In this document: piece by piece, positions 16,399-38,612 of the stretch | How positions within the stretch are numbered: position 1 is the first letter of the stretch | Layout: each line of letters starts with the position of its first letter | Assembly: GCA_016931075.1 (NCBI GenBank) | Contig: JAFGFF010000268.1 | Location: 1 to 42,074 of the forward strand | Source: Pirellulales bacterium | Lineage (GTDB): Bacteria > Planctomycetota > Planctomycetia > Pirellulales > Thermoguttaceae | Reading direction: 5' to 3' | Length of the DNA stretch: 42,074 nt | Position numbers and translations under genes: made by a program | Notes under the pieces: model-generated | The model's input: only the letters and a program-made list of their open reading frames with translations | Database searches by the model: none | Told to the model about the DNA's origin: nothing

Positions 16399-16489
16399 TG
16401 TAGGGAACGCCCTCCGTGGCGTTCCATGCACCGCGAGTATGGCCTTTTTTCCGCGGCTCGCGGAACGCCACGGAGGGCGTTCCCTACAG
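16399..16489. repeat. REPIN, GTAG-headed family A
   Basis: The two inverted 28-base arms are exact complements. Each starts CTGTAGG and contains the hairpin GGAACGCC-N6-GGCGTTCC. The loop is about 35 bases. It lies in the 301-base gap between the M24 and deacetylase genes, inside an otherwise compact operon. Confidence 0.9.
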
Positions 16490-16608
16490 AAACAGCAATT
16501 CCCTCAATTCGGTGAGTTGTCCTTATTACAAATACCAGGTACAAATATGTAGGAGCTGCCCCCAAGTCCGGCTTATGGCCGGTGCGAGGTGAAAAGGATA
16601 AGACGCAC

Positions 16609-17625
16609 ATGAATTGTCGCGATTTGCACATTCTGCTCTCCTTCGACATGGAGAGCGACATTGGGAGCTGGACCGATGAATACGTCGGTTGCGCGAAGGG
16701 GACCGGCCGGATTTTGGAGGTGCTGGACCGATACGACGTCCTGAGCACCTTCTTCTTCACGGGCGACGCGCTGCTGAACTGCCCGGAATCGGCGTGTGAG
16801 GTTCTAGCCGCCGCCAGGCACGAAATCGGTTGCCACACCTTGCACCACGAGAGCGTCGGCAATCCCAGCTTTCGTTGTCCCGGCGTGCAGCCCGTACTGC
16901 CCGAGGAAGTCCCCAATCGCATCGCAAAAGCCACGGAGATGGTGGAAGCGAAAACAGGGACCCGACCGATCAGTTTCCGGGCGCCGCGTGGTTGGGCCAG
17001 CACCGAAGCGCTTCGGACGCTACAGGAGCTAGGCTACGTGGCGGATTCTTCCTACATGGCCGCCTGTCACCGGCAACACACGCTTCCCTACTATCCGTCG
17101 GCCAAGGACTGGACCCAGCCCGGTGATCTGACGGTCCTCGAAGTCCCGTTGTTCGGCGGTGACATGGCGTACGGGGAACGTGACGCCGACAACTGGCTCG
17201 AGGAGGATCCTTGGATCACCCTGAGATTGAAGGGGGCTGAAGCCGTATTGGAGATGATCTGGCGTGAACATGATCGGCAGCAGAAGCAGGGTAACCCGGC
17301 TTTGGCCTGTTTCTATCTTCATCCCTGGGAATATGTCGAAATGCCCCAGACCATCACGACGGACGAATGTCGGATCGAGTTCCACGATCTCATCTGCAAG
17401 AACACGGGCGATGCTTCCGTCAGAACGCTTGACGCCCTGATTGCGGCGCTCAAAGCGGAAGGCGCTCAATTTCACACCATTCGAGATTTCACGGAGATGT
17501 GGAAGGGAAGGGTTCCTGACGCCCATGCTTCAGGCCACCCTCCGGCCCGGGGCGTGCCTTCTCGACCGAAAAGCCGAGGCGAAGGCGCGCTTGCCGACGG
17601 CTCGACCCGCACTGGTTTGAAGTAA
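16609..17625 (+). CDS. Polysaccharide deacetylase (NodB-like)
   Basis: 338 residues without a signal peptide. NodB motifs are present: FDMESD (metal Asp, residues 12-17), HTLHH (residues 76-80, metal His pair), SFRAPRG (122-128) and FYLHPWEY near residue 242, the latter typical of the subfamily that includes exopolysaccharide/PEP-CTERM-locus deacetylases. The family removes N-acyl groups from sugars, using zinc or a similar metal. The start is ATG 16609, in front of the conserved core; a GTG 27 bases upstream is the alternative. The C-terminal 35 residues are Pro/Arg-rich and probably disordered. Its place in the locus suggests deacetylation of an imported acetylated amino sugar or oligosaccharide. 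Confidence 0.88.
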   Translation: MNCRDLHILLSFDMESDIGSWTDEYVGCAKGTGRILEVLDRYDVLSTFFFTGDALLNCPESACEVLAAARHEIGCHTLHHESVGNPSFRCPGVQPVLPEEVPNRIAKATEMVEAKTGTRPISFRAPRGWASTEALRTLQELGYVADSSYMAACHRQHTLPYYPSAKDWTQPGDLTVLEVPLFGGDMAYGERDADNWLEEDPWITLRLKGAEAVLEMIWREHDRQQKQGNPALACFYLHPWEYVEMPQTITTDECRIEFHDLICKNTGDASVRTLDALIAALKAEGAQFHTIRDFTEMWKGRVPDAHASGHPPARGVPSRPKSRGEGALADGSTRTGLK

Positions 17626-17708
17626 TCGGCCCTGAGCAAGGGCAGACGCGCCGCACCTCAGGATTCCAGCAAGTGCTGATTCGGGGCGAGGACCGTGGGA
17701 GCAGACGG

Positions 17709-18797
17709 ATGAATCCCTTTGAGATCGAAATCCAACCGGACTTCGAAGGGTTGCGCCGATGCATCTTGCGTCAAGGGGAGCCCGAGCGTGTCCATAACAT
17801 CGAACTGCTCCTTGACGAAGAGATCATCTCGGAGATCGCCAGTCGATTCGATCTCGTAGGCAACCTCGATCTGACCGATCCCCACTACCGGCTGCGGCGC
17901 GATACGGTCGTGCACCGGTTCCTGGGCTATGATATATTTCCCGTGGCAGTCCCCGGCTTCGAGTTCACGATTCACTGGAATACGGCCAACAAGACCCACG
18001 CAACGAACGACCACCCCGAGCGGGAACGCAACTGGATCGAAGAACACCGCGGCCCGATCGGTTCTTGGAGCGACTTTGAGCAATATCCTTGGCCCGATCT
18101 CAAGAACCTCGATACACGTCCTCTCGAGTGGTGCGAGAAGAACCTGCCCGAGGGCATGGCCGTGTATTGCTGGAACGATCAGGTGTTCGAGCGTCTTTTC
18201 GGACTCTTCGGCTACGAGAATCTCTGCCTGAAGTTGTGCGACGAGCCGGAACTGGTCGAGGCCGTGGCACAAAAGGCGGGCCAGCTATGCGTCGGATTCA
18301 CCGAGGTGCTCTGCCAGTTCTCCCGTGTAGGGGCCATCTTCGACAGCGATGATCTGGGGTTCAGGTCGCAAACACTCCTCTCGCCTGAGTGGCTTCGCAT
18401 ACTGGTCCTGCCCTGGCACAAGGAATCGGCCCGCATCGCCCATGAACACAGGAAACTGTACTTCCTGCATTCCTGCGGAAATGTGGATGCGCTCATGGAA
18501 GACTTCATTGAAGACGTCGGCGTCGACGCAAAACACTCGTTCGAAGACGCCATCATGCCGGTTACCGAGGCGAAACGCAGATACGGCCATCGGATCGGGA
18601 TTCTCGGCGGAATCGACGTCGATTTCCTCTGCCGACAAGATGAGCAGGTAATCCGGGAGCGGGTTCGCGAAACGCTCGAAGTCTGTCAGCCCGGCGGAGG
18701 CTACGTGCTCGGTTCGGGCAACTCGATCCCGAACTTCATGCCTCTGGATCACTACCTGGCAATGCTCGACGAAGGCCGGAAATTCGGTCGGGGCTAG
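17709..18797 (+). CDS. Uroporphyrinogen decarboxylase-like (URO-D/MtaA-like) protein
   Basis: 362 residues with a URO-D-type barrel: the N-terminal PHYRLRRDTVVHRFLGYD region, FDSDDLGFRSQTLLSPEWL, the HSCGNV motif near residue 258 (the histidine-cysteine pair that binds zinc in MtaA/CmuA-type methyltransferases) and the tail GGIDVDFL, YVLGSGNSIPNFMPLDHY. It lacks the usual features of true heme-pathway HemE and lies in a catabolic operon, so a methyl transfer or related C1 role is more likely than porphyrin synthesis. ATG 17709 has GGGAG upstream. Last clear gene of the rightward arm. Confidence 0.82.
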   Translation: MNPFEIEIQPDFEGLRRCILRQGEPERVHNIELLLDEEIISEIASRFDLVGNLDLTDPHYRLRRDTVVHRFLGYDIFPVAVPGFEFTIHWNTANKTHATNDHPERERNWIEEHRGPIGSWSDFEQYPWPDLKNLDTRPLEWCEKNLPEGMAVYCWNDQVFERLFGLFGYENLCLKLCDEPELVEAVAQKAGQLCVGFTEVLCQFSRVGAIFDSDDLGFRSQTLLSPEWLRILVLPWHKESARIAHEHRKLYFLHSCGNVDALMEDFIEDVGVDAKHSFEDAIMPVTEAKRRYGHRIGILGGIDVDFLCRQDEQVIRERVRETLEVCQPGGGYVLGSGNSIPNFMPLDHYLAMLDEGRKFGRG

Positions 18798-18857
18798 ACC
18801 GTCGAAGCGCTAGTGAAATGTCTCAACCGGATTGTGATTTATCACAATGACACGTGC

Positions 18858-18931
18858 CTGTAGGGAACGCCCTCTGTGGCGTTCCGATGGCTCGGTCAAC
18901 CGGGGAACGCCACGGAGGGCGTTCCCTACAG
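18858..18931. repeat. REPIN, GTAG-headed family A
   Basis: Same arms as the copy at 16399-16489, with one C-to-T change in the left arm that keeps a G-U pair and a shorter, unrelated loop. It lies 60 bases after the URO-D-like gene and touches the end of the PEP-CTERM relic. Confidence 0.9.
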
Positions 18932-19131
18932 AGTGCCAAGATTGTCCATGATAAAAGTCACCAATTGCGAGACACTAAACCAACAATTCGGCAAACCCGA
19001 GCGGCGACGCAGAAGCCACACGAGTGGCACTCCCAGAGCCAGCAGCACGAATGTGCCGGGCTCGGGCGCGGGCGTCGAGGGTGAATCTGGGACGCGAAAA
19101 GGGAATGGGGCCAGCTTCTCCTGTTAGCCGC
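18928..19131 (-). pseudogene. Relic of a PEP-CTERM protein C-terminus
   Basis: On the minus strand the frame reads PSTPAPEPGTF, a hydrophobic helix (VLLALGVPLVWLL) and RRR, an intact PEP-CTERM signal. It is preceded by a TAA and has no start or upstream domain. After RRR the frame runs on for about 25 residues and ends in a TAG supplied by the REPIN. The text closely matches the tail of the protease gene at 20399-22033. Confidence 0.75.
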
Positions 19132-19195
19132 TGTGAACAGGGGTGTCGCTATCGCATACCAAGTCATTTGTCGGTATGATTGGGGTGACTCGACG

Positions 19196-19222
19196 CTGAA
19201 GCTGTCGTGAAGACAGCTTCAG
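19196..19222. repeat. Perfect 11-base stem-loop in a spacer
   Basis: CTGAAGCTGTC and its exact complement flank GTGAA. It lies in the 265-base spacer before the lower-GC membrane protein gene. There is no T-run, so terminator function is uncertain; no gene is seen around it. Confidence 0.6.
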
Positions 19223-19396
19223 AAGGACGAATAGGCAGGCGAGGGAACCACAGACGAACGCCGGACAGCAGGGCCGTCAGTTACGGTGCTTTCGCACCAA
19301 TCCACGGACCTGCCCCTGTTGCTCACCACGTTTTATCAAGAAATTGAAGTTCTTCTTCCAGGTTGGTAATTAAAACTGCTTTCAGAGGGTTTTCTG

Positions 19397-20545
19397 GTGT
19401 ATCAACCGATGTCTCCCAGTGTTGCCCAGCTAGTCTCCACAATGTCTGGCGATCAGATTTCGGTGACGCAAAGCAACAGTCACATCTGTATTGGTATTCG
19501 CCCCGGCATCTCAAAAACTCTCGGCTATTGCGGGGTTCTATTCATCCCGACAGGTGTCGTTCTTGGTGGCGCTGCTCTCTCGCTTGCCGTGACTTTGTCT
19601 GCCTCTGATCAGCCTAGCTGGTGGGCAATCGCAGCGTGGGCCGCTGTCGGACTCCTAGGTTTACTGCCTGCCATCGCGATGACTGCGATCCTTATACCGC
19701 CGCTCGTCATCAGGAGCAACATCGAGATCAGCGACCAAAGTGTTTACATCAAGGAAGGTGGCAGCGCGATGGAGTTTCCCTGGGAGGATATCAAGTCGGT
19801 CCGAGTACTATACAAGAGGAAAACCGAGCGCCAAATTCACGTTAAGAGCGGTGTGTCGTATCTTCGGGGTCGCGGTGGTGGCATTGCAATCGAGACCCCC
19901 CATGGCACAGTCAAACTAATGACGCACTGGCATCACGAAGTGAGTCAGTGGCTGGCAAGATTGCTGAGTGAAGTCTCAGGCGTCACGCTTTTTGACGACG
20001 AGAAAATCACGCGACCAGTTCTATTGAAGCCCATTGTCCGTGGCTTGTCAGCTACGATGTCTCGCAAAGAATCAAGAGGTGCGATGCTCCTCGGGCTATT
20101 TCTCGCCATATTGGCTCTATTCGGTGTCGGACGCATCGCTCTAGATTACCGAGACCTCGTACAATGGAAACTGGCCGTGGGCATTATCGAGTCGATAGAC
20201 ATGGAAAAGTCAGAGACTCAGCCGCACCTTGTTGTATCGTACCGCTATGAGGTGCAAGGAATTACTTTCGAGAACGATAGTTCTCGAATCGACGATTTGC
20301 AGGATGGTCGTCAGGCAGACATCGCCGTTGGCGACCGGATCGAGGTGCGGTACGACCCCGACGATCCGCGCGAATCTACGGCGGCGTGGCACCTTAGATT
20401 AGGAGCCTGCACAGACGGAATCATAATCTTCCTTGCTTTGGCCTTCGCGTGCGGACTCCTCGGAGCGACCCCGATAATCTACGCAGCGATCCGCAAGGAG
20501 AATGCCTTGGCCACACACTACGGTTGTCCAAATGAAAAAGAATGA
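19397..20545 (+). CDS. DUF3592-like membrane protein of unknown function
   Basis: 382 residues with two hydrophobic helices near residues 45-95, a PH-like cytoplasmic stretch (MEFPWEDIKSVRVLYKRK), a further helix near 225-245, then a segment with the DUF3592 pattern (LVVSYRYEVQGITFEND, GDRIEVRYDPDDPRES), and a last helix near 340-365. Function is unknown; such proteins are usually inner-membrane proteins. The start is the GTG with AGAGGG upstream; ATG 12 bases further is possible. Base composition is visibly lower in GC than the genes around it, and it is flanked by two related PEP-CTERM tails, so it may be a later insertion. Its 3' end overlaps the antisense protease gene by 147 bases. Confidence 0.72.
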   Translation: MYQPMSPSVAQLVSTMSGDQISVTQSNSHICIGIRPGISKTLGYCGVLFIPTGVVLGGAALSLAVTLSASDQPSWWAIAAWAAVGLLGLLPAIAMTAILIPPLVIRSNIEISDQSVYIKEGGSAMEFPWEDIKSVRVLYKRKTERQIHVKSGVSYLRGRGGGIAIETPHGTVKLMTHWHHEVSQWLARLLSEVSGVTLFDDEKITRPVLLKPIVRGLSATMSRKESRGAMLLGLFLAILALFGVGRIALDYRDLVQWKLAVGIIESIDMEKSETQPHLVVSYRYEVQGITFENDSSRIDDLQDGRQADIAVGDRIEVRYDPDDPRESTAAWHLRLGACTDGIIIFLALAFACGLLGATPIIYAAIRKENALATHYGCPNEKE

Positions 20546-22033
20546 AAAAGGAATGAAATGCCCTGTACAAATTGAATGCTGCCCTAGGGGAATTCCGCCG
20601 AGCTGCATAGGCTGATTCTGGGCATTCTGGTATGCGATTTCATGTTCGAGTTCGGCGGGCGACAGCCCTGCAAGCCACGTGTACGACACCCGGCTTGTTC
20701 TGTAACGGAGGAGCCACAGGACGGGTAGACTCCAGGCCAGCAAGAGGAAGGTGCCGGGCTCGGGCGTGGGTGTCGAGGGCGGGTTGAGGGACCAGTTGGC
20801 GGCCAGGATCGAGGCGTCGAGGTCGTCGACGCGGCCGTCGTGGTTGAAGTCGCCTTCGGTCCAGAATCCGTCGGTCGATTGCAGCCAGTGGGCGGCCAGG
20901 ATCGAGGCGTCGGCCGAATCGACCCGGCCGTTGCCGTCGGCGTCGCCCGGCGCGGGGGTGGGCCGGACGTCGATCGTCACCGTGGCGGCCTGTTCCGACC
21001 AGGCTTGGCCGTCGAACAGTGCGTAGGTGAAAGAGTCGGCGCCGATGAAGCCCGGGTTGGGCATGTAGATGAACTCCCCGCTGGGATCGAAGGAGAGCGT
21101 GCCGTTGGCCGGCAACGTCAGGCTGGTCGAGGTGAGTAGAACGTCGCCGTCCAGATCGAGGTCGTTGGCTATCACGCCGGGCAACTCGACACGGAGCGTG
21201 ACGTCTTCAAACGTGGCGTATGCGTCGTTCTTGGCCACTGGTGGGCGGTTCGGCGGCACGACGCCGGTGATCCAATCGTAGAGCGACGCCACCCGGGCGA
21301 AGGTTCCCCCGTCGCCGTAGCTGGCGTTGGCCGAGCCGTCGGTGTACCAGAGGGCCGTTTGGACGCCGGCCAAGTAGGTCTGGCCCTCAATGTCGACAAA
21401 CAGTCCCCCGCCGCTGTCGCCGTGGGCCATGCAATACTCCAGGTCCAGCGGCTCGGGCGAGCCCATCCGATTGCCGGCGCCGTCGTCGTCGGGCCGATCG
21501 AAGTCGACCAACAAAAGGTTCTCGGACCAGCCCCAGACCGAGCCGAGCATGTCGATCGTATTTTGACCGGCTCGCTTCGTGCCGCTGTAGGTTGTCTCGC
21601 CCGTCAGGCCCGTGCCCGAGCGTCCAAAACCCACGGTGACCGCTTCACGGCCCAGTTCACTGCCGAACTCGGGCAAGTAGAGCTTCGCCGGCGCCACGTC
21701 CGTCACTGGCCGGTCGAGCTGGAAGAGCCCGACGTCTTCGCCCGGGTATTTTACGATGGTCGATGCAACAGCGTTATAGGTCTCGTCGCCGAGCCGGAAG
21801 GAAGCCTGCGCGGTGGCCATGTGGCCGGCCGTGAGAACCCACGTGGGAGAAATCAAAACACCGCTTCCCAGGAGGCTGCCGGTGCAAATTTGCCCAGCGG
21901 CCGCGTAAGCTGGATCGTCGGCCAACGCCAGGTAGAGCGCCTCGTCGCGATCATGGCGGATCGTGCCCGCCGTGACTGCGCCGGCAGCCAACACGACCAG
22001 CATCAAACTTATCGCAACGAGCGATCGGGGCAT
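20399..22033 (-). CDS. Secreted trypsin-like serine protease with cadherin-like, dockerin and PEP-CTERM modules
   Basis: 544 residues: signal peptide (about 1-23), trypsin-like domain with His71 (TAGH), Asp100 (GEDVGL) and Ser207 (GDSGGG), a cadherin-like/VCBS-type domain (about 262-357, PPVAKNDAYATFED), two dockerin-type repeats (about 362-414), a Pro-rich linker and a PEP-CTERM signal PEPGTF...WLLRYR (about 424-445). Such signals normally end the protein, but here the frame continues for 99 residues with no recognisable domain, running antisense through the 3' end of the neighbouring gene. A lost stop codon is the simplest explanation. ATG 22033 starts at the signal peptide. Expected at the cell surface or exported. 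Confidence 0.85.
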   Translation of the reverse strand: MPRSLVAISLMLVVLAAGAVTAGTIRHDRDEALYLALADDPAYAAAGQICTGSLLGSGVLISPTWVLTAGHMATAQASFRLGDETYNAVASTIVKYPGEDVGLFQLDRPVTDVAPAKLYLPEFGSELGREAVTVGFGRSGTGLTGETTYSGTKRAGQNTIDMLGSVWGWSENLLLVDFDRPDDDGAGNRMGSPEPLDLEYCMAHGDSGGGLFVDIEGQTYLAGVQTALWYTDGSANASYGDGGTFARVASLYDWITGVVPPNRPPVAKNDAYATFEDVTLRVELPGVIANDLDLDGDVLLTSTSLTLPANGTLSFDPSGEFIYMPNPGFIGADSFTYALFDGQAWSEQAATVTIDVRPTPAPGDADGNGRVDSADASILAAHWLQSTDGFWTEGDFNHDGRVDDLDASILAANWSLNPPSTPTPEPGTFLLLAWSLPVLWLLRYRTSRVSYTWLAGLSPAELEHEIAYQNAQNQPMQLGGIPLGQHSICTGHFIPFSFFFIWTTVVCGQGILLADRCVDYRGRSEESAREGQSKEDYDSVCAGS

Positions 22034-22209
22034 GACTGCGTCCAAGATGCAGACTCAGTGCGTTCAACCCAACAGGCGGCAGACAGCCACACATAAACGA
22101 GAACGCCCAGTATAGAAAATCACCGGGGTCCAATGCAAGAAATGGCGTCATTGCCGCCCCGGAATTGTCCGAGGGAGCCCTTTCTTCGGGTGGGGCAGTA
22201 TGCCTCGGC

Positions 22210-25200
22210 CTACGCGGCCGCCTCGTGCTTCTTGCGGTACAAGAGCCAGTAGACGACGGGGATCACGACCAGGGTGAAGGCGGTCGAGGCGAAGATGCCG
22301 AAGATGATGGCCCAAGCCAGGCCCGAGAAGATCGGGTCGAGCGTGATGACCCAGTTGCCCAGCAGCGTGGTGCCCGAGGTAGCCAGAATGGGCCGTGTCC
22401 GGACGGCCACGCTCCGGAGGATCGCCTCGCGCAGCGACAGCCCTTCGGCCAGGCCGTGGTGGAAGAAGTCGATCAGCACGAGCGAATTGCGGACTACAAT
22501 CCCGCTGAGCCCGATCATCCCGATCATGGCCGTGGCCGTTAGGAAGACCGGGTTGGGGAACCCGCCGACCGGCCGGTTGACCAGGGCATTCAAGAGCCAG
22601 AAGCCGGGCAGGATGCCGATCAGCGTGAGCGGGATGGCCAGCATGATGACGATCGGCAGCAGCCGCGAGCCCGTCTGGAACATGAGGAGGATGAAGATGC
22701 CCACCTGCGCGGCGGCGAACGCCAGGCCCAGGTCGCGGAATACGTCGAGCGTGATCTTCCATTCCCCTTCGCCGGCCCAATCGACCGTGTAGCCGACGGG
22801 CAGCGCCCAGGGGTCGCCTCCGCCGGGGTTCAGCCAGGTGCGACTTTCGACGGGCCGGGGGCTCGCGGCGGGTTGAACGGCGGTCCCGTCGGGCTCGCGG
22901 TCCCATTGCATGTCGAGAATGGCATCGGCCGGCGGTCGGCCCGCGATCTCGGCAAACGCATAGGCCACGCGGCGGAGATTCTTGTGATAGATCGTCTTGC
23001 CGTCGACGCCCGTCTCGAGTTCGACCAGCGGCTCGGTCTTGACCAGTTGCCCGGCCTGGCCGACGAGATAGATCTGTTTCAGGTCCTCGATCGCCGATCG
23101 CATCTCGCGGGGCAACCGCAGCTCGATGGGCAACGGGTTGACCTCGCCCGGCGGGTGGATGGTCGTCACGGTCAGGCCGGACAGCGCGAGCTGTTGTGTC
23201 TGGGCGACGTCCTGCGTTGAGACGCCCGACAGGGCCGCCTTGTGCTTGTCGGTCACCAGCGTGTATCGCGTTTGATCGTCCTCGCCGCTGACGTCGACGT
23301 CAACCAGGCCCGGCTCGCGGTCCATCCGCGCGGCCACCGTCCGCGAGGCGGCGATCAGGTCGTCATACTTCGCGTCGTCCGGGCCGTAGATCTCGGCCGT
23401 GATCGTGGCGATGACCGGCGGGCCGGGCGGCACCTCGACCAGTTTGATCTTCGCGCCGGCCGCGTCGGCCAGGGCTTGCAGGTCGTTGCGGATCCGCAGG
23501 ATCAGGCCGTGCGACTGCTGCGACCGGTGTTCCTTCGAGGCCAGGTTCACCCGGATCTCGGCCAGATTCGATCCCCGGCGGAGGAAGTAGTGCCGGACCA
23601 TGCCGTTGAAGTCCATCGCCGAGGGCACGCCCGCGTAAAGCTGATAGTCGCGGACCTCGTTCACCCCGGCCAGGTACCGGCCGATCGACTCGGTGACCGC
23701 CTCGGTGTCTTCGAGCGTTGTGCCCTCGGGCATGTCGACGAGCACCTGGAACTCGTTCTTGTTATCGTAGGGGAGCATTTTCAGCGGTACGACGCGCAGC
23801 GCGGGCAGCAACATGGCGCCGACCAGCAGGAGCATCACGGCCCCGAGCGTCGCCCACGACAGCCAGCGCCGGTCGAGGATCGGCCCCAGCATAGCTTTGG
23901 TGAAGCGGTACAACGGCCGGGCGGTCAGGTCGAACGCCGGTTCCTCGTCGCCCCCCTTCTCGTGCAGCCGGCGCAGGGCGACCAGGGCCAGCCACGGGGT
24001 AATCATGAAGGCGACTCCCATCGACGCCGTCACCGTCAAGGGTACGCACAGGGCCATCGGGGCCATGTACGGGCCCATCATGCCGGTAATGAACATCAAC
24101 GGCAGGAAGCTCACGATGATCGCCAGCGTCGAGAGGATCAACGCCGGCCGGACCTCCTGGATCGCCCGAAGCACCGCGTCGCGCGGCGGCAGGATCTTCA
24201 TGGCGAAGTAGCGGGCGATGTTTTCGACGTCGGTGATCGGGTCGTCGACCAGCAGGCCCAACGAGAGGATCAGCGCGAACAGCGTCACGCGGTTGATCGT
24301 GTAGCCGACCATCAGGTTGATGAACAAGGTAATACTGTAGCAGACCGGGATGGCCAGGGCGACGACCAGGGCGGCCCGCCAGCCGATCATCATGCCGATC
24401 AGCCCGATCACCGTCAGCACGGCGATGGCCAGCCCTTCGACCAGCTCGTTGACCTTGGCATTGGCCGTCTCGCCGTAGTCGCGGGTGATCCGGTAGAAGA
24501 CGCCGTCGGGCAGGAACTTCGGGGCCAGTTCGGACATGCGGGCGTCGACGGCCTCGGCGACCCAAACGGCGTTGGTCCCTTTGCGCTTGGCCACGGCGAT
24601 GTGTACGGCCGGGAAGAGTTGCCCCGGTTCGAGCGGCGCGGCCTTGGCGATGTCCTCGCCTTCTTCTTTGTCGTCCTCGTTCGCTTCAATCGGCCGGTCC
24701 TTGGCGTCGCGGGGGTTCTCGGCGGCCGGACCGAAGCCGATCCAACTGTAACTGTCCGCCTCGGCCGGGCCGTCGATCACGGTGGCGACGTCCTTGAGGT
24801 AGACGGGCCGGTCGCCCCATAACTGGATGACCAGATCGCCCAGCTCCTGGGCGTCGCGGATGAACGTCCCCGCCTCGACGACGTACTCCTTGTCCTGCTG
24901 CTCGTACTTTCCGGCCCGGAGCGTCACGTTGCTCGCCCTGAGGGCCTGGGCCACCTGCAAGGCCGACGTGTGCCGGCCGGCCAGGCGGACCGGATCCAGC
25001 TCGACGCGGATCGTCCGGGGCCGCCCGCCGATCACGGTGACCCGGTTCGTGTTCTCAATGGCCTGCAACTCGTTTTGAAGTTGTTCGGCCAGACGTCGCA
25101 GGTGGTGGTCGTCGTAGCGCTTCGTCTCGGACCAGAGGGTCAGGTTGACGATCGGCACGTCGTCGACCTCGACCGGTTTGACCACCCAACCGGTCACGGC

Positions 25201-27065: not shown

Positions 27066-27166
27066 GCCATGCCCAGACAACCGCCTTGGCGGCGGATGGG
27101 CATGAGATTGAGACCAGCCTTGCCAACATGCCCATCCGCCGCTGAAGCGACGTCTGGGCATGGCAC
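27066..27166. repeat. REPIN-like palindrome, GCCATGCCCAGAC type
   Basis: The outer arms GCCATGCCCAGAC and GTCTGGGCATGGC are inverted. Inner GGCGGATGGGCATG and CATGCCCATCCGCCG form a second stem. A related copy lies at 41345-41475, and the arm start matches the GGGTGCCA-headed family. Confidence 0.75.
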
Positions 27167-27224
27167 CCGCGTGGCGATGGGTGCATTCCGCACTTTGCAC
27201 AATGGAGAACGCTATTCATCGGAA

Positions 27225-27319: not shown

Positions 27320-27391
27320 GTAGGCCGGGTCGTGACCCGGCTTGGCGGGGTTCGGTTTGCGCGATTCCCGCCGGGTCACGACCCGGCCTAC
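27320..27391. repeat. REPIN, GTAG-headed family B
   Basis: Each arm starts GTAG and contains the hairpin GCCGGGTC-gt-GACCCGGC. The arms are inverted around a loop of about 25 bases. A second copy of this family is at 37305-37360. Confidence 0.88.
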
Positions 27392-29139: not shown

Positions 29140-29226
29140 GGGTGCCATGCTCCACGCTTGCGTGGACATGTTTTCCTGGGAGTATCGCGGCCTCTGCATG
29201 TCCACGCAAGCGTGGACATGGCACCC
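29140..29226. repeat. REPIN-like palindrome, GGGTGCCA-headed, CCACGC type
   Basis: Inverted arms headed GGGTGCCATG, each with the inner hairpin CCACGC-tt-GCGTGG. It lies between the convergent ends of the glycosyltransferase and HAMP-like genes. A close copy is at 30022-30107. Confidence 0.85.
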
Positions 29227-29808: not shown

Positions 29809-30129
29809 GGGACTCGGGCCTCCGTCAGGATTTCCGGTGGGGGTTCACGCGAGACGTCCCGCCACTCGGCAGGCCGCCAACCGCCGTGATGCGTACTCGC
29901 ATCGCGCACGACTGTCTCTAGAAGAATAGCTCACAGGGCAAGAAATGCCGGCTAGCGAGCCGATTCTCACGGTTCGAGTTGTGCAGGTCGTAACGATTGC
30001 AGGCCGTGGAAGACGGTGACAGGGTTCCATGCTCCACGCTTGCGTGGGCATGTTTTAGTGGCTTGCTCCGGTTCCACATGCCCACGCAAGCGTGGAGCAT
30101 GGCACCCAAAATCTCCGCTGGGTGGAGCA
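29809..30129. other. Spacer with one REPIN-like palindrome, otherwise no gene
   Basis: The 321-base gap contains the palindrome at 30022-30107. The remainder presumably holds the promoter of the HAMP-like gene. No protein or RNA gene is supported. Confidence 0.55.
30022..30107. repeat. REPIN-like palindrome, CCACGC type
   Basis: Same inner hairpin CCACGC-tt-GCGTGG as the copy at 29140-29226. The right arm ends in TGGCACCC while the left begins GGTTCCATG, so its outer end has decayed. It lies after the stop of the small secreted protein gene. Confidence 0.8.
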
Positions 30130-30537: not shown

Positions 30538-30672
30538 GCTGCACCTCCGCGTTTGGCGCCGGAGCAAGAGAGCCTTGCTCGGACTAGAAAAGACAACTAC
30601 AGAAAGTGTAGCTTATGCCCTCGACCGGGGGGCCGAGACCGGAAAGAAACACCGGAATGCCCATCCCGTCGG

Positions 30673-31911: not shown

Positions 31912-32023
31912 GATGGACTTTTTCTGATAATCGAGGGACTAGGCCGTCATTTGGCGATATGTCGTGTCTCCCTTATACCCGGTCCGAATGCCCTGGATCA
32001 AGACGGCATTGTTGACCGAGGGG

Positions 32024-33112
32024 CTATGGATCCATTTTCGGTTCACCCTCTTCCGGCACCAGGTCAATGACCACGATCTCGGGCCGGCAGCAGAAGCGAA
32101 GCCGAGGGGCGGGGCCGCGTTCCAGGCCGGTGCCGCGGGAGACGATCAGCTTTCGGCCTTCGGAAAGTTCGGTCACGCCCGAGGCCCAGTTGCGGGGGAC
32201 GCGACAGCCGGTGAAGATGGGCCCGAAGCCGGGGATTTGGACCTGGCCGCCGTGGGTGTGCCCGGCCAGCAACAAATCGCCCTCGGTGGTTTCTATTGCA
32301 TAATTCGGCGCGTGACCGAGGACGACATGAAAGCGGTCGGACGAAGGCGTAGGAATTCGTATACCGTTGCGAAACGAGTCGTTCACCGCAAGGCACGTCA
32401 GCCGGATGCCGGCCACGTCGAAGGTCCGGGTGCGCGGGACCGGCATGACGGCCGTGTTTTGGAAGAGAAGAAACCACGGATTCCAAACGTCGATGTTACC
32501 TCCGATGGCAAAGGCGCCTTCTTTGCCGTTAAAATCCAGTTCTTTCAAGAGGTTGTTCATCACCTGGGCCTGATCGTTCCATTTGCACCCAGGGATGCTG
32601 AGATAGTCGCCGGCTAGGAGAAGCACGTCCGGTTGCTGTTCCATCACGGTCTGGAGCACCCGACGCTCGTAGGGGCCGATCGCGTCGGTCTGGAAATCGG
32701 CCAGGACCACGATCCGCACGGGCCGCTCGATCTTCGGGCTGGCGATCCGGTGGTGCGTCACTTCGAGCCAGGTCGGCTCGATAAAGAAGGCATGGATGCC
32801 CACGCCTACGATTCCCACGGCTGTCACGACCGACAGCAAGGCAGTTTTCCGCGCCGTCCGCCGCAAGAGCCACGCGCAAATGGTTAGCAGGACCGGTCCG
32901 TGAAGAAATAAAGCGCAGGCGACCAGACTGGCCGTGTAGAAAGACAAAAGGCCTCCGGTGAAGCCCAATGCTAATACTCCTACTGTCACCCCGCCGGCGA
33001 GCAGGGACGTCCACCACGACCAGGCTGTTCGTTTACAAAGAAGAATGGCGGCGATCACGGCCAGGTCGACGACCAGAATCGCCAGATTGTATGAGAGCGG
33101 AGCAGTAATCAT
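32024..33112 (-). CDS. Membrane-bound metallophosphoesterase-like protein
   Basis: 362 residues: four or so hydrophobic helices in the first 115 residues, then a calcineurin-like phosphoesterase domain similar to YaeI-type enzymes. Motifs are VVLADFQTD (usual DxH; here DFQ), LLAGDYL (GD), GGNIDVW (usual GNHD; here GNID), LGHAPN and AGHTHGGQ. The two changed positions would weaken one metal site. The enzyme family cleaves phosphoesters such as UDP-diacylglucosamine. ATG 33112 is the first Met in front of the first helix; a GTG at 33142 is an alternative. The changes suggest either an altered substrate or reduced catalysis. Confidence 0.83.
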   Translation of the reverse strand: MITAPLSYNLAILVVDLAVIAAILLCKRTAWSWWTSLLAGGVTVGVLALGFTGGLLSFYTASLVACALFLHGPVLLTICAWLLRRTARKTALLSVVTAVGIVGVGIHAFFIEPTWLEVTHHRIASPKIERPVRIVVLADFQTDAIGPYERRVLQTVMEQQPDVLLLAGDYLSIPGCKWNDQAQVMNNLLKELDFNGKEGAFAIGGNIDVWNPWFLLFQNTAVMPVPRTRTFDVAGIRLTCLAVNDSFRNGIRIPTPSSDRFHVVLGHAPNYAIETTEGDLLLAGHTHGGQVQIPGFGPIFTGCRVPRNWASGVTELSEGRKLIVSRGTGLERGPAPRLRFCCRPEIVVIDLVPEEGEPKMDP

Positions 33113-33526
33113 CGACACGATTGTCCGGGGGCCGGCCTCCACAAGGAGTGATCGCCCGGGGGCTCAGGAGTGGTTCCGTCACCCTGACCGTGTTCCCGAG
33201 AAGTGGAAGCCGAAAAATGGGGGTTCCTGCCTTGCCCCCCGACTATGGCAGCGGAGGCATGACGAGTCAGTCGGCATTATACCCGAAAACGGGCCCGTGG
33301 CATCGGCCAGTCCCGACATGCCCCCAGCCGTGACGGTTGGGGCCTTGTCAGCCAGGGGGTCATCTCGCACAATAGGGGCCTTCGGCGAACGGGTGCCACT
33401 GCTGGCTTGTCCAGCAGTGTTTCCTAAAGCTTTTTCACTTCGCACTGCTGAACAAGCCAGCAGTGGCACCCAGCAGAGCATCGGGGCCCGGGCCATTTTT
33501 CCTCTTACCAACTGGACTCTCGCACC
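33113..33526. other. Spacer with one REPIN-like palindrome
   Basis: The 414-base gap between the divergent metallophosphoesterase and thymidylate synthase genes contains a REPIN at 33391-33471. No gene or clear promoter could be picked out in the rest. Confidence 0.5.
33391..33471. repeat. REPIN-like palindrome, GGGTGCCA-headed, CTGCTGG type
   Basis: Inverted arms headed GGGTGCCA, each with the hairpin CTGCTGG-cttgt-CCAGCAG (one base changed in the right arm). Single-unit relatives are at 6906-6945 and about 35224-35250. Confidence 0.87.
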
Positions 33527-34375
33527 ATGGAAGGCATTCCCGTTCTCTGTGTCCGGGGCGACTGCATCGCCCGGGCTTGGGAAAACTCGCTTTTGGAACT
33601 CTATCGAGCAGGCGGCGACGTCTCAACCCAGTACGACAAGCCCGACGACCCGCCCAGCAAGGATGCGACGATGATCCTCACCGTCGAGAACCCGCTGGCC
33701 GAGCCGCGGATCCACCGCGATTTCCCCGGCGGATTCGAGGAGCTGCAGGAATACGTCATGGAGGTCTGCGAGGGCATCAAGGACCATTGCGTTCGCGATC
33801 CCGACGACCCAGACGACACACGGTGGGAATATACCTATCACCAACGGCTCTTCGGCTACGCCGCGCCGACGATCGAACCGATCGACCAGATCGAGGGCCT
33901 CTGCCGCCAACTGGCCGACGCGCCGCACACCCGCCGGGCGCAGGCCGTCACCTGGAAGGTCTGGGAAGACCGCCACTGCTACGACCCGGCCTGCCTGCAG
34001 AGCGTCTGGTGCCGTATTACCGAAGCGTCAGGCCGGCGCGTGCTGAGCATGAACGTCCGGTTCCGCAGCAACGACGCCTACAAGGCGGCCTTCATGAACA
34101 TCTTCGCCCTGGTCCAGCTCCAGGCGAACATCGCCGCCCGGGTGGCCGAGCTGTCGGGCGTACCGGTCGCACTGGGCCGCTACTGCCACATGGCCGACAG
34201 CTACCACATCTACGGCTCGAACCTGGCCGAGTTCGAAGGCCGGTTCCTCGGCGCGATCGAAAAGCGCACGTTCGAGCAACGGACCATGTGCTACGAGGAC
34301 GTTCGCGACATGATGGAAGAAGCCCGGCCCACTATTCTTGAAAAGGCCCAACGCATGGGCCGTAACGGGGCGTGA
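33527..34375 (+). CDS. Thymidylate synthase-family protein, archaeal-like
   Basis: 282 residues. The C-terminal half matches the thymidylate synthase fold: RSNDAYKAAFMNI (residues 180-192, dUMP-binding Ser/Asp), a helical QLQANIAARVAEL, and DSYHIYG (residues 224-230), the counterpart of the HxY that binds dUMP. Cys156 in DPACLQSVWCR fits the catalytic Cys position, although the usual PCH is PAC. The N-terminal half is the divergent type seen in archaeal synthases (CVRGDCIARAWENSLLEL). Canonical enzymes make dTMP from dUMP and methylene-tetrahydrofolate; this branch may modify another pyrimidine. No Shine-Dalgarno site is evident. The two REPINs around it mark it off from neighbours. Confidence 0.82.
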   Translation: MEGIPVLCVRGDCIARAWENSLLELYRAGGDVSTQYDKPDDPPSKDATMILTVENPLAEPRIHRDFPGGFEELQEYVMEVCEGIKDHCVRDPDDPDDTRWEYTYHQRLFGYAAPTIEPIDQIEGLCRQLADAPHTRRAQAVTWKVWEDRHCYDPACLQSVWCRITEASGRRVLSMNVRFRSNDAYKAAFMNIFALVQLQANIAARVAELSGVPVALGRYCHMADSYHIYGSNLAEFEGRFLGAIEKRTFEQRTMCYEDVRDMMEEARPTILEKAQRMGRNGA

Positions 34376-34399
34376 AGACGACGAATCCCCCAGCGTATT

Positions 34400-34447
34400 G
34401 GGTGCCATACCCAGACGTCGTGTCAACGACGGATGGGCACGGCACCC
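34400..34447. repeat. Short GGGTGCCA-headed palindrome
   Basis: GGGTGCCATACCCAGACG and the inverted GGATGGGCACGGCACCC form an imperfect stem. It is related to the GCCATGCCCAGAC elements at 27066 and 41345, and lies 12 bases from a family A REPIN. Confidence 0.65.
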
Positions 34448-34459
34448 GGTGACGTTCCT

Positions 34460-34534
34460 CTGTAGGGAACGCACTCCGTGGCGTTCCGGGTTTTTGGATT
34501 AGACCAGGAACGCCACGGAGGGCGTTCCCTACAG
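34460..34534. repeat. REPIN, GTAG-headed family A
   Basis: Same 28-base arms as the copy at 16399-16489 with one C-to-A change in the left arm. It sits between the stop of the thymidylate synthase gene and the convergent Gly/Pro-rich gene. Confidence 0.9.
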
Positions 34535-34581
34535 ATTAATTGCGCGGTGTGAATTGCCGTCAGCCTTCTTTCATCAGACCG

Positions 34582-35124
34582 TTACGGTCCCGGCATCGGC
34601 ATGGGCATCGGGCCCATGGGACCGCCCATCGGCGGACGGTAGCCGGGGAAGCCCCAGGGGAACCAGGGCGGGTTGGGCAACTGGCCGAGGCCGTAAGGGT
34701 TGACCCAAGAGCCGAACGGGGTCGTCCAGGGACCTTGCGGATTGCCCCAGGGACCGTAAGGCGTCGCGCCGGCCCGATAGGGATATTCCCACTCGCCGTA
34801 GGGACGAATGAACTCGCCTTCGCCCCACGTCTCGACCAGGTGGAGGTTGTCGGCCGTGCCGCCGGGGCCTCGCTGACGGATCCGATGGTGGTGATAGCCG
34901 CTTCGCTTGTAGTTCGACTCGGGCGTCGTGTAAGGCGTCGTCCCGGGCGAATACTGCGCCACGCGATTGCCCGAGGCCGGGTCATGGCTGTAGTACGACT
35001 TCTTGAAGGCCCAATCGGCCGCCGCGGGCAAGGCCGTGACCAGAAGGCCGAGGACAGCAAGGCTGACCAGTGTGAGTTGCCTTTGCGGAGTTCGTTGCCT
35101 AAACAGAGTTTGTTGCTTAATCAT
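34582..35124 (-). CDS. Secreted Gly/Pro/Tyr-rich protein of unknown function
   Basis: 180 residues: signal peptide (about 1-37, ending ALPAAADW), a YYSHDPASGNRVAQYSPG segment and a low-complexity half rich in Pro, Gly, Trp and Tyr, ending in GGPMGPMPMPMPGP. There is no enzymatic motif. Such proteins are common in planctomycetes and may be structural cell-surface or spore-coat-like components; that is guesswork. ATG 35124 is the first Met before the signal peptide; no Shine-Dalgarno site was seen. The tandem Pro/Gly composition favours a fibrous or disordered fold. Confidence 0.72.
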   Translation of the reverse strand: MIKQQTLFRQRTPQRQLTLVSLAVLGLLVTALPAAADWAFKKSYYSHDPASGNRVAQYSPGTTPYTTPESNYKRSGYHHHRIRQRGPGGTADNLHLVETWGEGEFIRPYGEWEYPYRAGATPYGPWGNPQGPWTTPFGSWVNPYGLGQLPNPPWFPWGFPGYRPPMGGPMGPMPMPMPGP

Positions 35125-35223
35125 GGGGGAGAGTCAATCTGCTGGGAGATAAGAAAGCTCGCGTCGTTCCGTCCCAAAGTCTCCTTGTCGAGGGTCTTTT
35201 AATATTGTGTTCTCACACTTCGC

Positions 35224-35250
35224 TGGGTGGCACTGCTGGCTTGTCCGAGG
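35224..35250. repeat. Half REP of the CTGCTGG type
   Basis: GGGTGGCACTGCTGGCTTGTCC matches one arm of the REPIN at 33391-33471 without its hairpin partner. It is a decayed or truncated copy next to the family C REPIN. Confidence 0.5.
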
Positions 35251-35270
35251 GTGTCCGGGAATTCGATTTT

Positions 35271-35337
35271 GTAGGAGGCGACTCCTGTCGCCGATCGGGA
35301 GTTCGGAACATCTTCGGCGACAGGAGTCGCCTCCTAC
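35271..35337. repeat. REPIN, GTAG-headed family C
   Basis: Inverted arms headed GTAGGAG, each with the hairpin GGCGAC-tcct-GTCGCC. It lies in the 251-base spacer between the Gly/Pro-rich gene and the lipoprotein gene. Confidence 0.88.
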
Positions 35338-35375
35338 AAACTGTAATGTTGTGTTCTCATTCGTCGTAACACCAT

Positions 35376-36014
35376 TCATTGCTCGACCGTGCGCTCGACC
35401 ATCAGGCCGGTGTGGTCGGGCAGGTTGACTTTTTCCGGCACGTAGATGTAGCGTTCGCCTTCGTCCAGTTCCGGAAGTTGGATTCGCAGGGGCTTGAAGA
35501 TCTTCTCCATGAACTCTTCGTGCGTCTTCGGCGGTCGGCCGTGTTCGGCGATGTAGAGCTTCAAGCTGTAGACGATCCGGTTCAAGTCCATCCGGTCCTG
35601 TGCCCGCCAGTAGGAGGCCAGAGGAACCGTGATGATCCGCGGTCCGCTGTAGTTGCCCTTGCCGCTTCCGATGTTCGCCTTCTCCTGAACCACGTTCAAT
35701 CCAGCCGCCGGCGTGGTGTGCATTTGCAGCCCTTCGTTGCCCATCTTCGGGGCGGGCAGAGCCGGCACCGGCTCGATCGGAGCGGGAGTCTCCACCGGCG
35801 GAGGCGTCTCGACCGGCATGGGAATCTCAGGTGGCGCGGGCGGCAAGGCCGGATCGGCGTCCGGCTCGGGCTGGACCGGCGCCGGCGGCGATTGGGCCGT
35901 CTTGGTGTTCGTATTCGCATTGGTGGAGTTGACCGGGGGCGGGTCGACCGAGTCGCAGCCCGCCCAGACCAGGCACATCGACATCAATACACAAACCGCG
36001 GCAATCCGTTTCAT
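35376..36014 (-). CDS. Lipoprotein with Pro/Asn-rich linker, SurE-linked
   Basis: 212 residues: lipobox-type signal peptide (MSMCLVWAGC, Cys near residue 20), a disordered stretch rich in Pro, Asn, Thr and Glu (about 25-90), then a mixed alpha/beta region with SLKLYIAEHGRPPKTHEEFME, the pattern of the hydrophilic end of type II secretion pseudopilin-like domains, and ERYIYVPEKVN. It is probably anchored in the periplasm by lipid. Start ATG 36014 lies only 2 bases after the surE stop, so both are in one operon. No family name is certain. Confidence 0.78.
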   Translation of the reverse strand: MKRIAAVCVLMSMCLVWAGCDSVDPPPVNSTNANTNTKTAQSPPAPVQPEPDADPALPPAPPEIPMPVETPPPVETPAPIEPVPALPAPKMGNEGLQMHTTPAAGLNVVQEKANIGSGKGNYSGPRIITVPLASYWRAQDRMDLNRIVYSLKLYIAEHGRPPKTHEEFMEKIFKPLRIQLPELDEGERYIYVPEKVNLPDHTGLMVERTVEQ

Positions 36015-36016
36015 GG

Positions 36017-36919
36017 CTAGGTTCCTGTTTTTGTTTCGGGGTCGTCTTCCGGCTCGACTTCGGCCGGGTCCACCGTCACGCGTTGCATCTTCCGCATCGA
36101 CCGGACCACCGGCAGGCTGGGCCGGGCGGTCGTGGTCGATTTGTCTATTTCGCCGGGCGACTCGACGTCGAATCGCCATTGTTCCATCTGCCGCAAGACC
36201 GGCTGTTCCGTCAGGTTGTAGCCCAACGGCGTCAAGGCCACGTGGCCGGCCGACAGGACCGATAGGTCGGTCTCGTCGGCGAATCGGGCCGCCGGTTTGC
36301 CGGTCGCCCAGTAGTAATGCCGCCCCCAAGGGTCGGTCCGCTGCTCGTACTCGTCGCCGTAGCGGCTCGTGTCCATCGGCACGCAATGGATCTCAGGCGA
36401 CTGCTTCTCAAGTGCCGCGATCGGGATGTTGAGGCTGAACAGCCGGGGGTCGGGTCCTTTCTGGGCGAGGACCTGTTCGATAATGTCGGTGGCCAATCGG
36501 GCCGCTCGTTCAAACGGGGCCTGCTCGTCGAACTCCAACGAGACGGCCACGCTCGTGATTCCAAAAAAGGCCCCTTCGATCGCCGCCGCGACCGTGCCCG
36601 AGTAGAGCACATTGATCCCGGCGTTCAGTCCACCGTTGATTCCGCTGACGACGAGGTCGGGCGTTTGGGGGCAAAGTTCGTTGACGGCCAGCTTGACGCA
36701 GTCGGCCGGGCTGCCCTCGACGGCCCAACCCCATCGGGTCGATCCGTGGTAGACCTCCTTGACGATCAGGGGTGTCAAATAGGTGATCGAATGGCCCACG
36801 CCGCTTTGTTCGGTCGCCGGGGCCACGACACACACCTGACCCAACCGCTGCAACTGCCGTTCCATGGCCGCCAGGCCCGGGGCGTGGATTCCGTCGTCGT
36901 TGGTCAGTAAAATGAGCAC
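36017..36919 (-). CDS. surE: 5'-nucleotidase SurE
   Basis: 300 residues, of which about 250 form the SurE fold. NDDGIHAPG (residues 7-15, metal Asp pair), ATEQSGVGHSIT (the metal-binding Ser region), VEGSPADCVKLAV and SGINGGLNAGINVLYSGTVAAA are all intact. The enzyme removes the phosphate from 5'- and 3'-nucleoside monophosphates and polyphosphates and helps in stationary survival. The start is GTG 36919, which places the first strand correctly. A low-complexity acidic tail (PAEVEPEDDPETKTGT) extends beyond the fold. The lipoprotein gene follows with a 2-base gap. Confidence 0.93.
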   Translation of the reverse strand: MLILLTNDDGIHAPGLAAMERQLQRLGQVCVVAPATEQSGVGHSITYLTPLIVKEVYHGSTRWGWAVEGSPADCVKLAVNELCPQTPDLVVSGINGGLNAGINVLYSGTVAAAIEGAFFGITSVAVSLEFDEQAPFERAARLATDIIEQVLAQKGPDPRLFSLNIPIAALEKQSPEIHCVPMDTSRYGDEYEQRTDPWGRHYYWATGKPAARFADETDLSVLSAGHVALTPLGYNLTEQPVLRQMEQWRFDVESPGEIDKSTTTARPSLPVVRSMRKMQRVTVDPAEVEPEDDPETKTGT

Positions 36920-37304
36920 CGGTAGGCCGACCCCCTCTCCGATAGGACTCGAGAACCGGCCCAGCCGCGTGCCAGACCGACCCGTTCATCATAGCCACGC
37001 CCCCCGCGCCTAGCAACGCCCGGCGACGCAAACCCTTGTGTTGTCGGAAGTTTCGAGAACCACCCTGTCGGCAGGGGTCCGAGGACCTGATCGCCAATTG
37101 ACCCGGAGAAGAAGGACGGTTTCCGACCATTCGATCCGTAAACCACCATCGGCCATTTACCAGTACAATAGGCCTGATCCGGCCTACCGGACCAGCTCGG
37201 CAGTCCGACGACCCGAGCCAAGGTTGTCCTTTTTCAACACCATGTGTTGCCAGAACGCGACACGCAACCGCTGATCCTTCCATGGATTGATGTCAGAAAA
37301 ACCC

Positions 37305-37360
37305 GTAGGCCGGGTCGTGACCCGGCAAGGCTGGAACCGCTGGGTCACGACCCGGCCTAC
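37305..37360. repeat. REPIN, GTAG-headed family B
   Basis: Same hairpin GCCGGGTC-gt-GACCCGGC as at 27320-27391, with a shorter loop and slightly degraded right arm. Confidence 0.85.
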
Positions 37361-37370
37361 TTGCTTTGTT

Positions 37371-37462
37371 CTGTAGGGAACGCCCTCCGTGGCGTTCCGC
37401 GGGCCTCGGAAATTGGGCCAAACTCGCGGTTCACGGAACGCCACAGAGGGCGTTCCCTACAG
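37371..37462. repeat. REPIN, GTAG-headed family A
   Basis: 28-base arms as in the other three copies, with one G-to-A change in the right arm, and a loop of about 36 bases. It is the immediate neighbour of a family B REPIN and about 80 bases upstream of the ChaN-like gene. Confidence 0.9.
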
Positions 37463-37541
37463 TGACAGTGATGACTTCAATTCGAGAAGTTGTTCTTCAA
37501 CGGATCCTGAGAACGATACCTAGACCTAGGGAGTAAACACC

Positions 37542-38522
37542 ATGCCTCGTCCGCTAAGTCTGTTCGTGATTACCGTGCTCTTCGCCACCTCGGTCGTGAT
37601 GGCCGACGAGGCATCTACACCGGAGAAACCCGAGGCCAAGAAAGCGGCCGACGCGCCGCGGCTGCAGTGTTGGATCGATCTTTATCAGGCGGAGCCCTTG
37701 CCGTACCATGCCGTGCTGGCCGACCTGGCCACGGCCCGGGTGGTCTACTTGGGCGAGAGTCACGGGGTGGTCCGGCATCACGGTCTTCAGGAGCGGATCG
37801 TGGCCGACCTGGCCAAGCGGAACGTCCCGCTCGTTTTGGGATTGGAACAGATGGAAGCGATCGACCAGCCCCACCTGGACCGTTACGCCCGGGGCGAGAT
37901 CGATTTCGAGGAGCTGGCCAACGTGACCGACTGGAGCCACACCTGGTCGAACTACACCGACTACCGCCCGGCACTCGAGGCGGCCCGGAAGGCCAAGGCG
38001 CCGATCCTGGCCCTGAACGCCCGGGCGACGACCATCCGTCGCGTAGCCCGGGGCGGCGGCGTCGACAAGCTGGCCCCCGAGCTTCGCAAGGAACTGCCCG
38101 AGGAAATGAAGCTCAACGATCCAGACTACATGAAGTATCTGAACCTGCGGATGCCGGTCCACATGGCAGCCACCCGCGAGCGGATGCGTCCCATGTTCGA
38201 GGCCCAAATGGCACGGGACGAGATGATGGCCTCGGTCCTGGCGACGTTTTTGAACTCCGAAGCTGGAAAAGACCGCACGGCGGTCGTCCTCTGCGGCGGG
38301 GGCCACGTCTGCTTCGGCCTGGGCACGCCCGACCGGGTCCGCCGGCGGATGCCCGGCGTCAAGGACAGGATCATCCTCATGACGTCCAGCGGCGACGTGA
38401 AGATGACGCCCTCGATGAAGGCCGTCACCCGCCCGGTGCGCGTCACCCACGACGATCTCCGCGCGATCGGCCGCCCGATCGCCGATTATTTGCATGTGAC
38501 GAGCCTGAAGAAGGACAACTAG
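37542..38522 (+). CDS. ChaN-like haem-binding uptake protein
   Basis: 326 residues with a signal peptide (about 1-21). The mature part carries the ChaN/Tiki-type pattern: VVYLGESHGVVRHHGLQERIV (GES-H motif near residues 70-75), LGLEQMEAID and AVVLCGGGHVCFGLGTPDRVRRR near the C-terminal third, where the GGGH histidine is expected at the site. ChaN proteins bind haem or act as TIKI-like metalloproteases in other lineages; the planctomycete function is not known. Start ATG 37542 with GGGAG upstream. It is followed by a REPIN and a DUF4405 gene; an iron/haem link to that putative cytochrome is plausible but inferred. Confidence 0.85.
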   Translation: MPRPLSLFVITVLFATSVVMADEASTPEKPEAKKAADAPRLQCWIDLYQAEPLPYHAVLADLATARVVYLGESHGVVRHHGLQERIVADLAKRNVPLVLGLEQMEAIDQPHLDRYARGEIDFEELANVTDWSHTWSNYTDYRPALEAARKAKAPILALNARATTIRRVARGGGVDKLAPELRKELPEEMKLNDPDYMKYLNLRMPVHMAATRERMRPMFEAQMARDEMMASVLATFLNSEAGKDRTAVVLCGGGHVCFGLGTPDRVRRRMPGVKDRIILMTSSGDVKMTPSMKAVTRPVRVTHDDLRAIGRPIADYLHVTSLKKDN

Positions 38523-38537
38523 AACCTCGTAGTTTTC

Positions 38538-38612
38538 GTAGGGTGGGGCACACTTGCCCCACCAGTTTCATGCCTTGCGATATCCTGGTGGGGCAAGTGT
38601 GCCCCACCCTAC
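38538..38612. repeat. REPIN, GTAG-headed family D
   Basis: Inverted arms headed GTAGG, each with the hairpin GGTGGGGC-N6-GCCCCACC, perfectly complementary, loop about 23 bases. It lies between the ChaN-like and DUF4405 genes, and would separate them if they were once a continuous operon. Confidence 0.9.

Follow-up and report, generated by a model that had tools for sequence, protein, structure and literature searches.

Background

REP-associated tyrosine transposases (RAYTs, also TnpA-REP) are Y1 HUH endonucleases that accompany repetitive extragenic palindromic (REP) sequences, and two inverted REP hairpins make up a REPIN (REP doublet forming hairpins), a non-autonomous element. The RAYTs that have been studied bind one single-stranded REP, with the tag guiding a cut at a CT dinucleotide beside the hairpin, and group 3 RAYTs need bases of the loop (PMC8266576). 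REPINs without a RAYT are known from E. coli (PMC8049555), and an unpaired GA has been described as unique to the REPs of Pseudomonas and Xanthomonas (PMC2817692). In Planctomycetes, including R. baltica, GTAG REPs with several families per genome and repeat-specific RAYTs were published in 2013 (Di Nocera, PMC3733652). Here we analyse a contig of 42,074 nucleotides from a Pirellulales bacterium (GenBank assembly GCA_016931075.1, contig JAFGFF010000268.1; C418 in our numbering), hereafter the window, which belongs to a 94%-complete assembly of 6.06 Mb in 491 contigs. An initial annotation, made from the sequence alone, had noticed five families of GTAG- or GGAG-headed inverted hairpins, A to E, in this window, and had tied them to RAYTs by analogy with proteobacteria; the host is a planctomycete. 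As judged from sequence comparison, families A to E and the neighbouring GGGTGC-headed families are very probably REPINs, each family multiplied by its own RAYT, and their shared GTAG design would reflect a common recognition mode of several RAYT clades.

Five families with one build

On rereading the positions, A to E were found where they had been reported, in the form of inverted hairpin pairs that carry their tags on the outer side. The arm of family A is GTAG-GGAACGCC-CTCCGT-GGCGTTCC, and four REPINs of this family are present, at 16398..16489 (CTGTAG-headed hairpins 16400-16425 on the plus and 16462-16487 on the minus strand; this order of strands holds for all pairs below), 18858..18931 (18860-18885 and 18904-18929), 34460..34534 (34462-34487 and 34507-34532) and 37371..37462 (37373-37398 and 37435-37460). 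The first and the fourth belong to the larger subfamily 1, which has conserved flanks outside the arms, and the second has the spacer of subfamily 2. Family B, with the arm GTAG-GCCGGGT-CGTG-ACCCGGC and the core GTAG-GCCGGGTCGTGACCCGGC, is found at 27320..27391 (27320-27341 and 27370-27391) and again at 37305..37360 (37305-37326 and 37339-37360), where it is directly adjoined by the fourth A REPIN. Single REPINs represent family C (arm GTAG-GA-GGCGAC-TCCT-GTCGCC, core GTAG-GA-GGCGACTCCTGTCGCC-GA) at 35271..35337 (35271-35292 and 35316-35337) and family D (arm GTAG-GGTGGGGCA-CACT-TGCCCCACC, core GTAG-GGTGGGGCACACTTGCCCCACC) at 38538..38612 (38538-38563 and 38587-38612). Family E, with the arm GGAG-GGCCACG-CTCCGT-CGTGGCC, or TGGAG-GGCCACG-CTCCGT-CGTGGCC with the full tag, occupies 41266..41331 (41266-41289 and 41308-41331) and lies past position 38612, where the annotated range had ended.

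The design of A to E is far beyond chance. Whole-genome pattern counts, which allowed up to two mismatches for A and E and up to one for C, gave 306 units of A (155+151), 199 of C (102+97) and 146 of E (76+70), and the reversed patterns used as control gave zero in each case. This count of copies and orientations had been proposed with the initial annotation, and its outcome bears out the families: in a sample of about 0.98 Mb of the genome, inverted plus/minus pairs stood against reversed ones at 39:1 for A, 17:0 for C, 12:0 for E, 7:0 for D and 7:0 for B. The stretches of this sample were partly picked for A matches and RAYT genes, so copy numbers extrapolated from it are too high for A and rough for the others. 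When all 256 tetramers were tested as heads directly preceding a hairpin (0.61 Mb), GTAG and its one-base shift TAGG were the most enriched, with 40 and 46 hairpins per 1000 occurrences, and any other tetramer had at most about 11. The same tetramer scan revealed further GTAG cores in this genome, H (GTCAGGC-TGT-GCCTGAC) and I (AAGCGGCG-TCT-CGCCGCTT), as well as a compensated variant of A, GGAACGGC-CTCCGT-GCCGTTCC.

In families A to D, GT[AG]G, the tag by which REPINs and GTAG REPs are recognized, stands at the 5' foot of the hairpin, and all five families consist of two inverted REPs with tags outward, at many sites. Family E lacks the canonical GT[AG]G tag and has TGGAG instead; it is REPIN-like by build and has the loop of A, yet its tag is noncanonical. 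In family A, the unpaired CTGTAG is invariant and stands on one side only of near-identical 26-nt cores. CT immediately precedes GTAG in 81 of 82 A units of the sample, and since this is the dinucleotide that the studied RAYTs cut (PMC8266576), we count it in favor of a RAYT.

RAYT genes beside the repeat cores

A search of this genome with NF047646, the profile of REP-associated tyrosine transposases (curated cut-off 80 bits), returned nine clear RAYT-like genes, three of which are flanked by REPs. D cores are found on both sides of the RAYT of contig C120, which scores 184 bits and matches E. coli TnpAREP 4er8 (phmmer E 2e-42). The RAYT of C114 (101 bits, also above the cut-off) is flanked by GGGTGCC-headed hairpins of a family F, and that of C130 by cores of a family G, GGGTGGCACTGGCGTCTCGCCAGTG. 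It appears that C114 is the RAYT of F, and C130 that of G, a related GGGTGGC family. As an inventory, the five annotated families were incomplete: GGGTGC-headed pairs of F had been missed in the same window, and F and G have their RAYTs here. A search of this genome for a gene close to the A-type RAYT found none and gave the distant C114 (E 7e-6) as the best match.

In relatives, inverted A cores flank orthologous RAYTs on both sides in G036, placed in the same family as this genome, in G112 and G094, and in G334, which belongs to another order; these A-type RAYTs are 65-69% identical. In a sample of 147 genomes of relatives, only three hold an A-type RAYT, and all three belong to the six genomes in which A units number 30 or more (Fisher 4e-5, with species relatedness ignored). 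The core of B occurs at a RAYT of G026 and that of H at a RAYT of G055, and C-type cores (GTRG-GA, a short stem and the loop TC[CT]) flank five RAYTs. The connection to RAYTs, originally drawn by analogy, is thereby replaced with REP-flanked genes, for D in this genome and for A, B and a variant of C in relatives; the flanking genes pair cores with RAYT clades. Two arrangements that resembled RAYT loci were rejected: A units 618 nt apart in G102 (C2:467168/467811) have no RAYT inside, and two H units on C380, separated by 608 nt, have between them an unrelated open reading frame that is not a RAYT.

The A-type proteins score 67-76 bits against NF047646 (E 2e-18 to 3e-21), under the 80-bit cut-off, and are also below the Pfam cut-offs. 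By these scores they are classified as clear NF047646 homologues just below the cut-off and outside the equivalog, and annotation cut-offs thus miss a REP-flanked RAYT clade. Their motifs are invariant in our alignment A1, with the HUH histidines H73/H75, W125-Q126, Y146 and N150-P151 (YxxxNP). An AlphaFold model computed from a two-sequence input (predicted local distance difference test, pLDDT, 39.6) was not usable for assessing the Y1 HUH fold.

In a tree of 86 RAYT domains, a quick tree with many weak branches, A-type RAYTs form one clade (Shimodaira-Hasegawa-like approximate likelihood ratio test, SH-aLRT, 100; 6/6) and so do the C-type RAYTs (SH-aLRT 98; 5/5). The remaining RAYTs with GTAG flanks, among them C120 and the RAYTs of B and H, are on one side of a single branch (99; 21 rows). 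Tag labels change 7 times on this tree, versus 27 times in shuffles. As the cognate RAYTs of A, C and B/D are in three separate clades, several RAYTs are indicated rather than one relaxed enzyme. The initial annotation had left both choices open; the first is upheld, with the qualification that, in the assembly, D is the only one of the five families with a REP-flanked RAYT.

Constant tag and loop, variable stem

The families had been described as different cores of one design and as unrelated in sequence; the shared design stands, and the lack of relationship does not hold for A and E, which have the loop CTCYGT in common and are probably related for that reason. Family E has two stems in this genome, GGCCACG and GGACGCG, both with the loop CTCYGT and with the same C/T alternative as A. 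The A-type RAYTs of a different order in the class have GTAG-GGGCCGCC-CTCYGT-GGCGGCCC. When six distinct A-type units are compared, both sides change in 3 of 8 stem pairs and 98% of cells stay paired; slid versions of the stem alignment give little or no compensation signal, although the sequences are few. This is modest evidence that elements of the A clade keep their tag and the loop CTCYGT while the stem changes by compensated substitutions. We tentatively suggest, as an idea that is more doubtful than not, that the A-type RAYT lineage reads tag and loop (CTGTAG and CTCYGT) and leaves the stem free to drift by paired substitutions, so that new cores might arise without new specificity: A and its variant GGAACGGC, the cores with GGGCCGCC in other orders, and also E, once its tag had changed to TGGAG. 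The sharing of the loop by A and E fits the need of group 3 RAYTs for loop bases (PMC8266576). If the suggestion is true, part of the diversity of cores in a genome would come from turnover of stems under a single enzyme lineage.

The loop allele is the same in both arms of 34 of 39 A REPIN pairs, as would be expected if whole REPINs are copied; no such agreement was seen between the arms of E (12 pairs). The A copies form subfamilies with conserved sequence beyond the arms, and one subfamily is located inside the spacer of H REPINs, which suggests that copies spread partly as larger composite units.

Two observations concern these larger units. In subfamily 1, some 25-37 bases beyond each arm are conserved and resemble an imperfect inverted repeat (AAGRAYAACTYACCGA; in the window, 16340-16530 and 37340-37500). 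A REPINs that lie inside or next to H REPINs (GTAGGTCAGGCTGTGCCTGAC), with a conserved junction, are found at L192 3032-3188, L167 4008-4166, L028 6690-6873 and L039 15952-16079, and can be read as a mosaic element copied as a single unit.

Proposed mechanism and alternative explanations

In the mechanism that we propose, a RAYT would bind one single-stranded REP hairpin through the GTAG tag and features of the hairpin (loop and foot spacing), the tag would guide a cut at the nearby CT dinucleotide, and the paired unit would be copied into a new site. Cutting, copying and target choice are what we infer for this genome, with the cutting chemistry taken from the enzymes of E. coli, Stenotrophomonas and Marinomonas (PMC8266576). 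Families D, F and G retain a RAYT here, and those of A, B, C and E were apparently lost or left unassembled, which would make these four families residual populations. Several results weigh against this account. The search of this assembly (94% complete, 491 contigs) turned up no RAYT for A, B, C or E, so the origin of those copies is deduced from relatives. The exact core of C was not found beside any RAYT, the nearest, at G109, differing in the loop, and a RAYT of E was found in none of the genomes examined for it (G055, G100, G063 and G013). No clean empty site came to light, and the flanks of subfamily 1 never occur without an A REPIN in the sample. Some of the tag labels on the RAYT tree, including that of L118 and some doubtful rows, were set by hand. 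As for E, a scan for CTCYGT hairpins across all collected loci produced no E RAYT, and G100 and G063 carry E, yet have no NF047646 match at E 1e-10.

The absence of these genes could be a matter of assembly, as REP-flanked genes break short-read contigs, and the RAYTs of A, B, C and E may be present in the organism; we give this a substantial chance, somewhat short of even, and it is compatible with the mechanism above. The fragmentation and incompleteness of the assembly speak for it, as do the contig with the A-type RAYT of G036, which is only 4034 bases long and begins in tandem A repeats, and the little decay of the A copies in this genome, 64 of 82 of which match one of the two loop alleles exactly. 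On the other hand, G102, which is 99% complete in about 40 contigs, has 123 units of A without an A-type RAYT, and therefore RAYT-less populations of A do exist. The same genome bears on a different possibility, that one RAYT of this genome, for example C120, has relaxed core specificity, reads GTAG only and moves A, B, C, D and perhaps also E in trans. C120 is indeed the sole GTAG-flanked RAYT found in the assembly, and E. coli TnpAREP processes some foreign REPs that have GTAG and the right bulge (PMC8266576). Nonetheless, A is abundant in G102 and G138, where no RAYT of the C120 type was found (best NF047646 matches 82 and 89 bits, versus 184), A units far outnumber D units in the sample from a genome that holds only the D RAYT of these, and in other genomes the cores have cognate RAYTs beside them, which fall into three clades in step with tag spacing and loop. 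We consider a single relaxed enzyme improbable.

It is harder still to believe that the hairpins are kept for a host role, as bidirectional transcription terminators or stabilisers of mRNA 3' ends, with an incidental GTAG tag. Most elements of the window do lie between Pfam-supported genes, and REPs can have such effects (PMC3733652, PMC6006769), which could be a secondary consequence of REPINs; terminators, however, do not explain the near-identity of the A cores, the one-sided CTGTAG or the inverted flanking of RAYT genes.

Neighbouring hairpin families

Hairpin pairs of family F, with a GGGTGC head, are as abundant in the window as A to E, and combine one tag with several different hairpins. 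An F1 pair with a GGGTGCC head is at 29140..29226 (perfect reverse arm 29197-29226), an F1-like pair with the head GGGT(G)CC at 30022..30107, an F2 pair with the GGGTGC head at 33391..33471, and an F-type pair GGGTGCCATGGGCGGCTTGTCC, the 29-nt arms of which are fully complementary, at 1339..1405. Units of F3 (GGGTGCCATGCCCAGACGTC..GGATGGGCATG) are found at 27124..27168 on the minus strand and, on the plus strand, at 34400..34447, directly upstream of the third A REPIN, and at 41340..41385, directly adjoining E; F3-type hairpins stand beside the RAYT of C114. Also adjoining E, at 41460-41953, are diverged direct repeats of 62-76 bases (CCTGGTTGAAAACCGCTTG...).

Outside the window, L011 (C189; 2513-2712 and 4481-5590) has an IS200-type transposase gene amid hairpins CCCCGGGTCGCTTCGCGACCCGGGG and GTAG-CCCCGATAGCTCCGCTATCGGGG, the latter resembling hairpins near RAYTs of G022 and G004. 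At L009 (C142, 4259-5170) and L010 (C348, 4287-4305), IS200-type transposase genes are flanked by CCCAGGGCAACGCCCTGGG hairpins with the foot TTCTCCCAG, and the same hairpins with the same foot are also found near a RAYT-like gene of C260. At L015 (C410, 3892-5657), many copies of CTAAGTGCGCTCTGACCCCAGAATC flank a RAYT-like gene that has a DnaA C-terminal-like domain.

Comparison with known systems

The pairings of genes with cores take the place of an analogy; RAYT/REP pairs have received little study in this phylum. REPIN populations of three RAYT clades coexist in one genome, and each clade has a tag spacing and a loop of its own. Family A is a natural series, with the same tag and loop, different stems, and a RAYT present or absent, for the study of RAYT recognition and of REPIN persistence after RAYT loss.

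The elements resemble REPINs and GTAG REPs (Bertels and Rainey 2011, PMC3116915; Di Nocera 2013, PMC3733652) in the GTAG or GT[AG]G tag, the hairpin, the inverted (head-to-head, HH) pairs and the high copy number. Compared with the published GTAG REP families, the cores are new and a single genome holds ten families or more; E, with its GGAG tag, falls outside the variants of PMC3733652 (GYAG, GYRG, GTRG and GTMG), and F has the tag GGGTGC. By sequence, C120 is directly related to E. coli TnpAREP (a group 2 RAYT; PDB structure 4er8), and, as in the E. coli system, GTAG abuts the foot of the hairpin in families D, B and H; the E. coli REP differs in having a bulge, whereas the stems here are perfect and the host is a planctomycete. 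REPs of the C type are like those of the Pseudomonas and Xanthomonas RAYTs (Nunvar 2010, PMC2817692; group 3) in GTRG, GA, the stem and the end CGA(T); the C-type RAYTs here are planctomycetal and are likened to group 3 by the build of their REPs. The A-type RAYTs resemble TnpAY1 subclass 2.7 (Quentin 2018, PMC6006769) in DH[VL]H, WQ, Y-x-L-x-NP, a D/R after WQ and flanking GTAG REPs, a likeness that is drawn from motifs in the table of that paper. What is new in comparison with all of these is the set of cores, the tags GGAG of E and GGGTGC of F, the pairing with A-type RAYTs that score under annotation cut-offs, and the constancy of tag plus loop.

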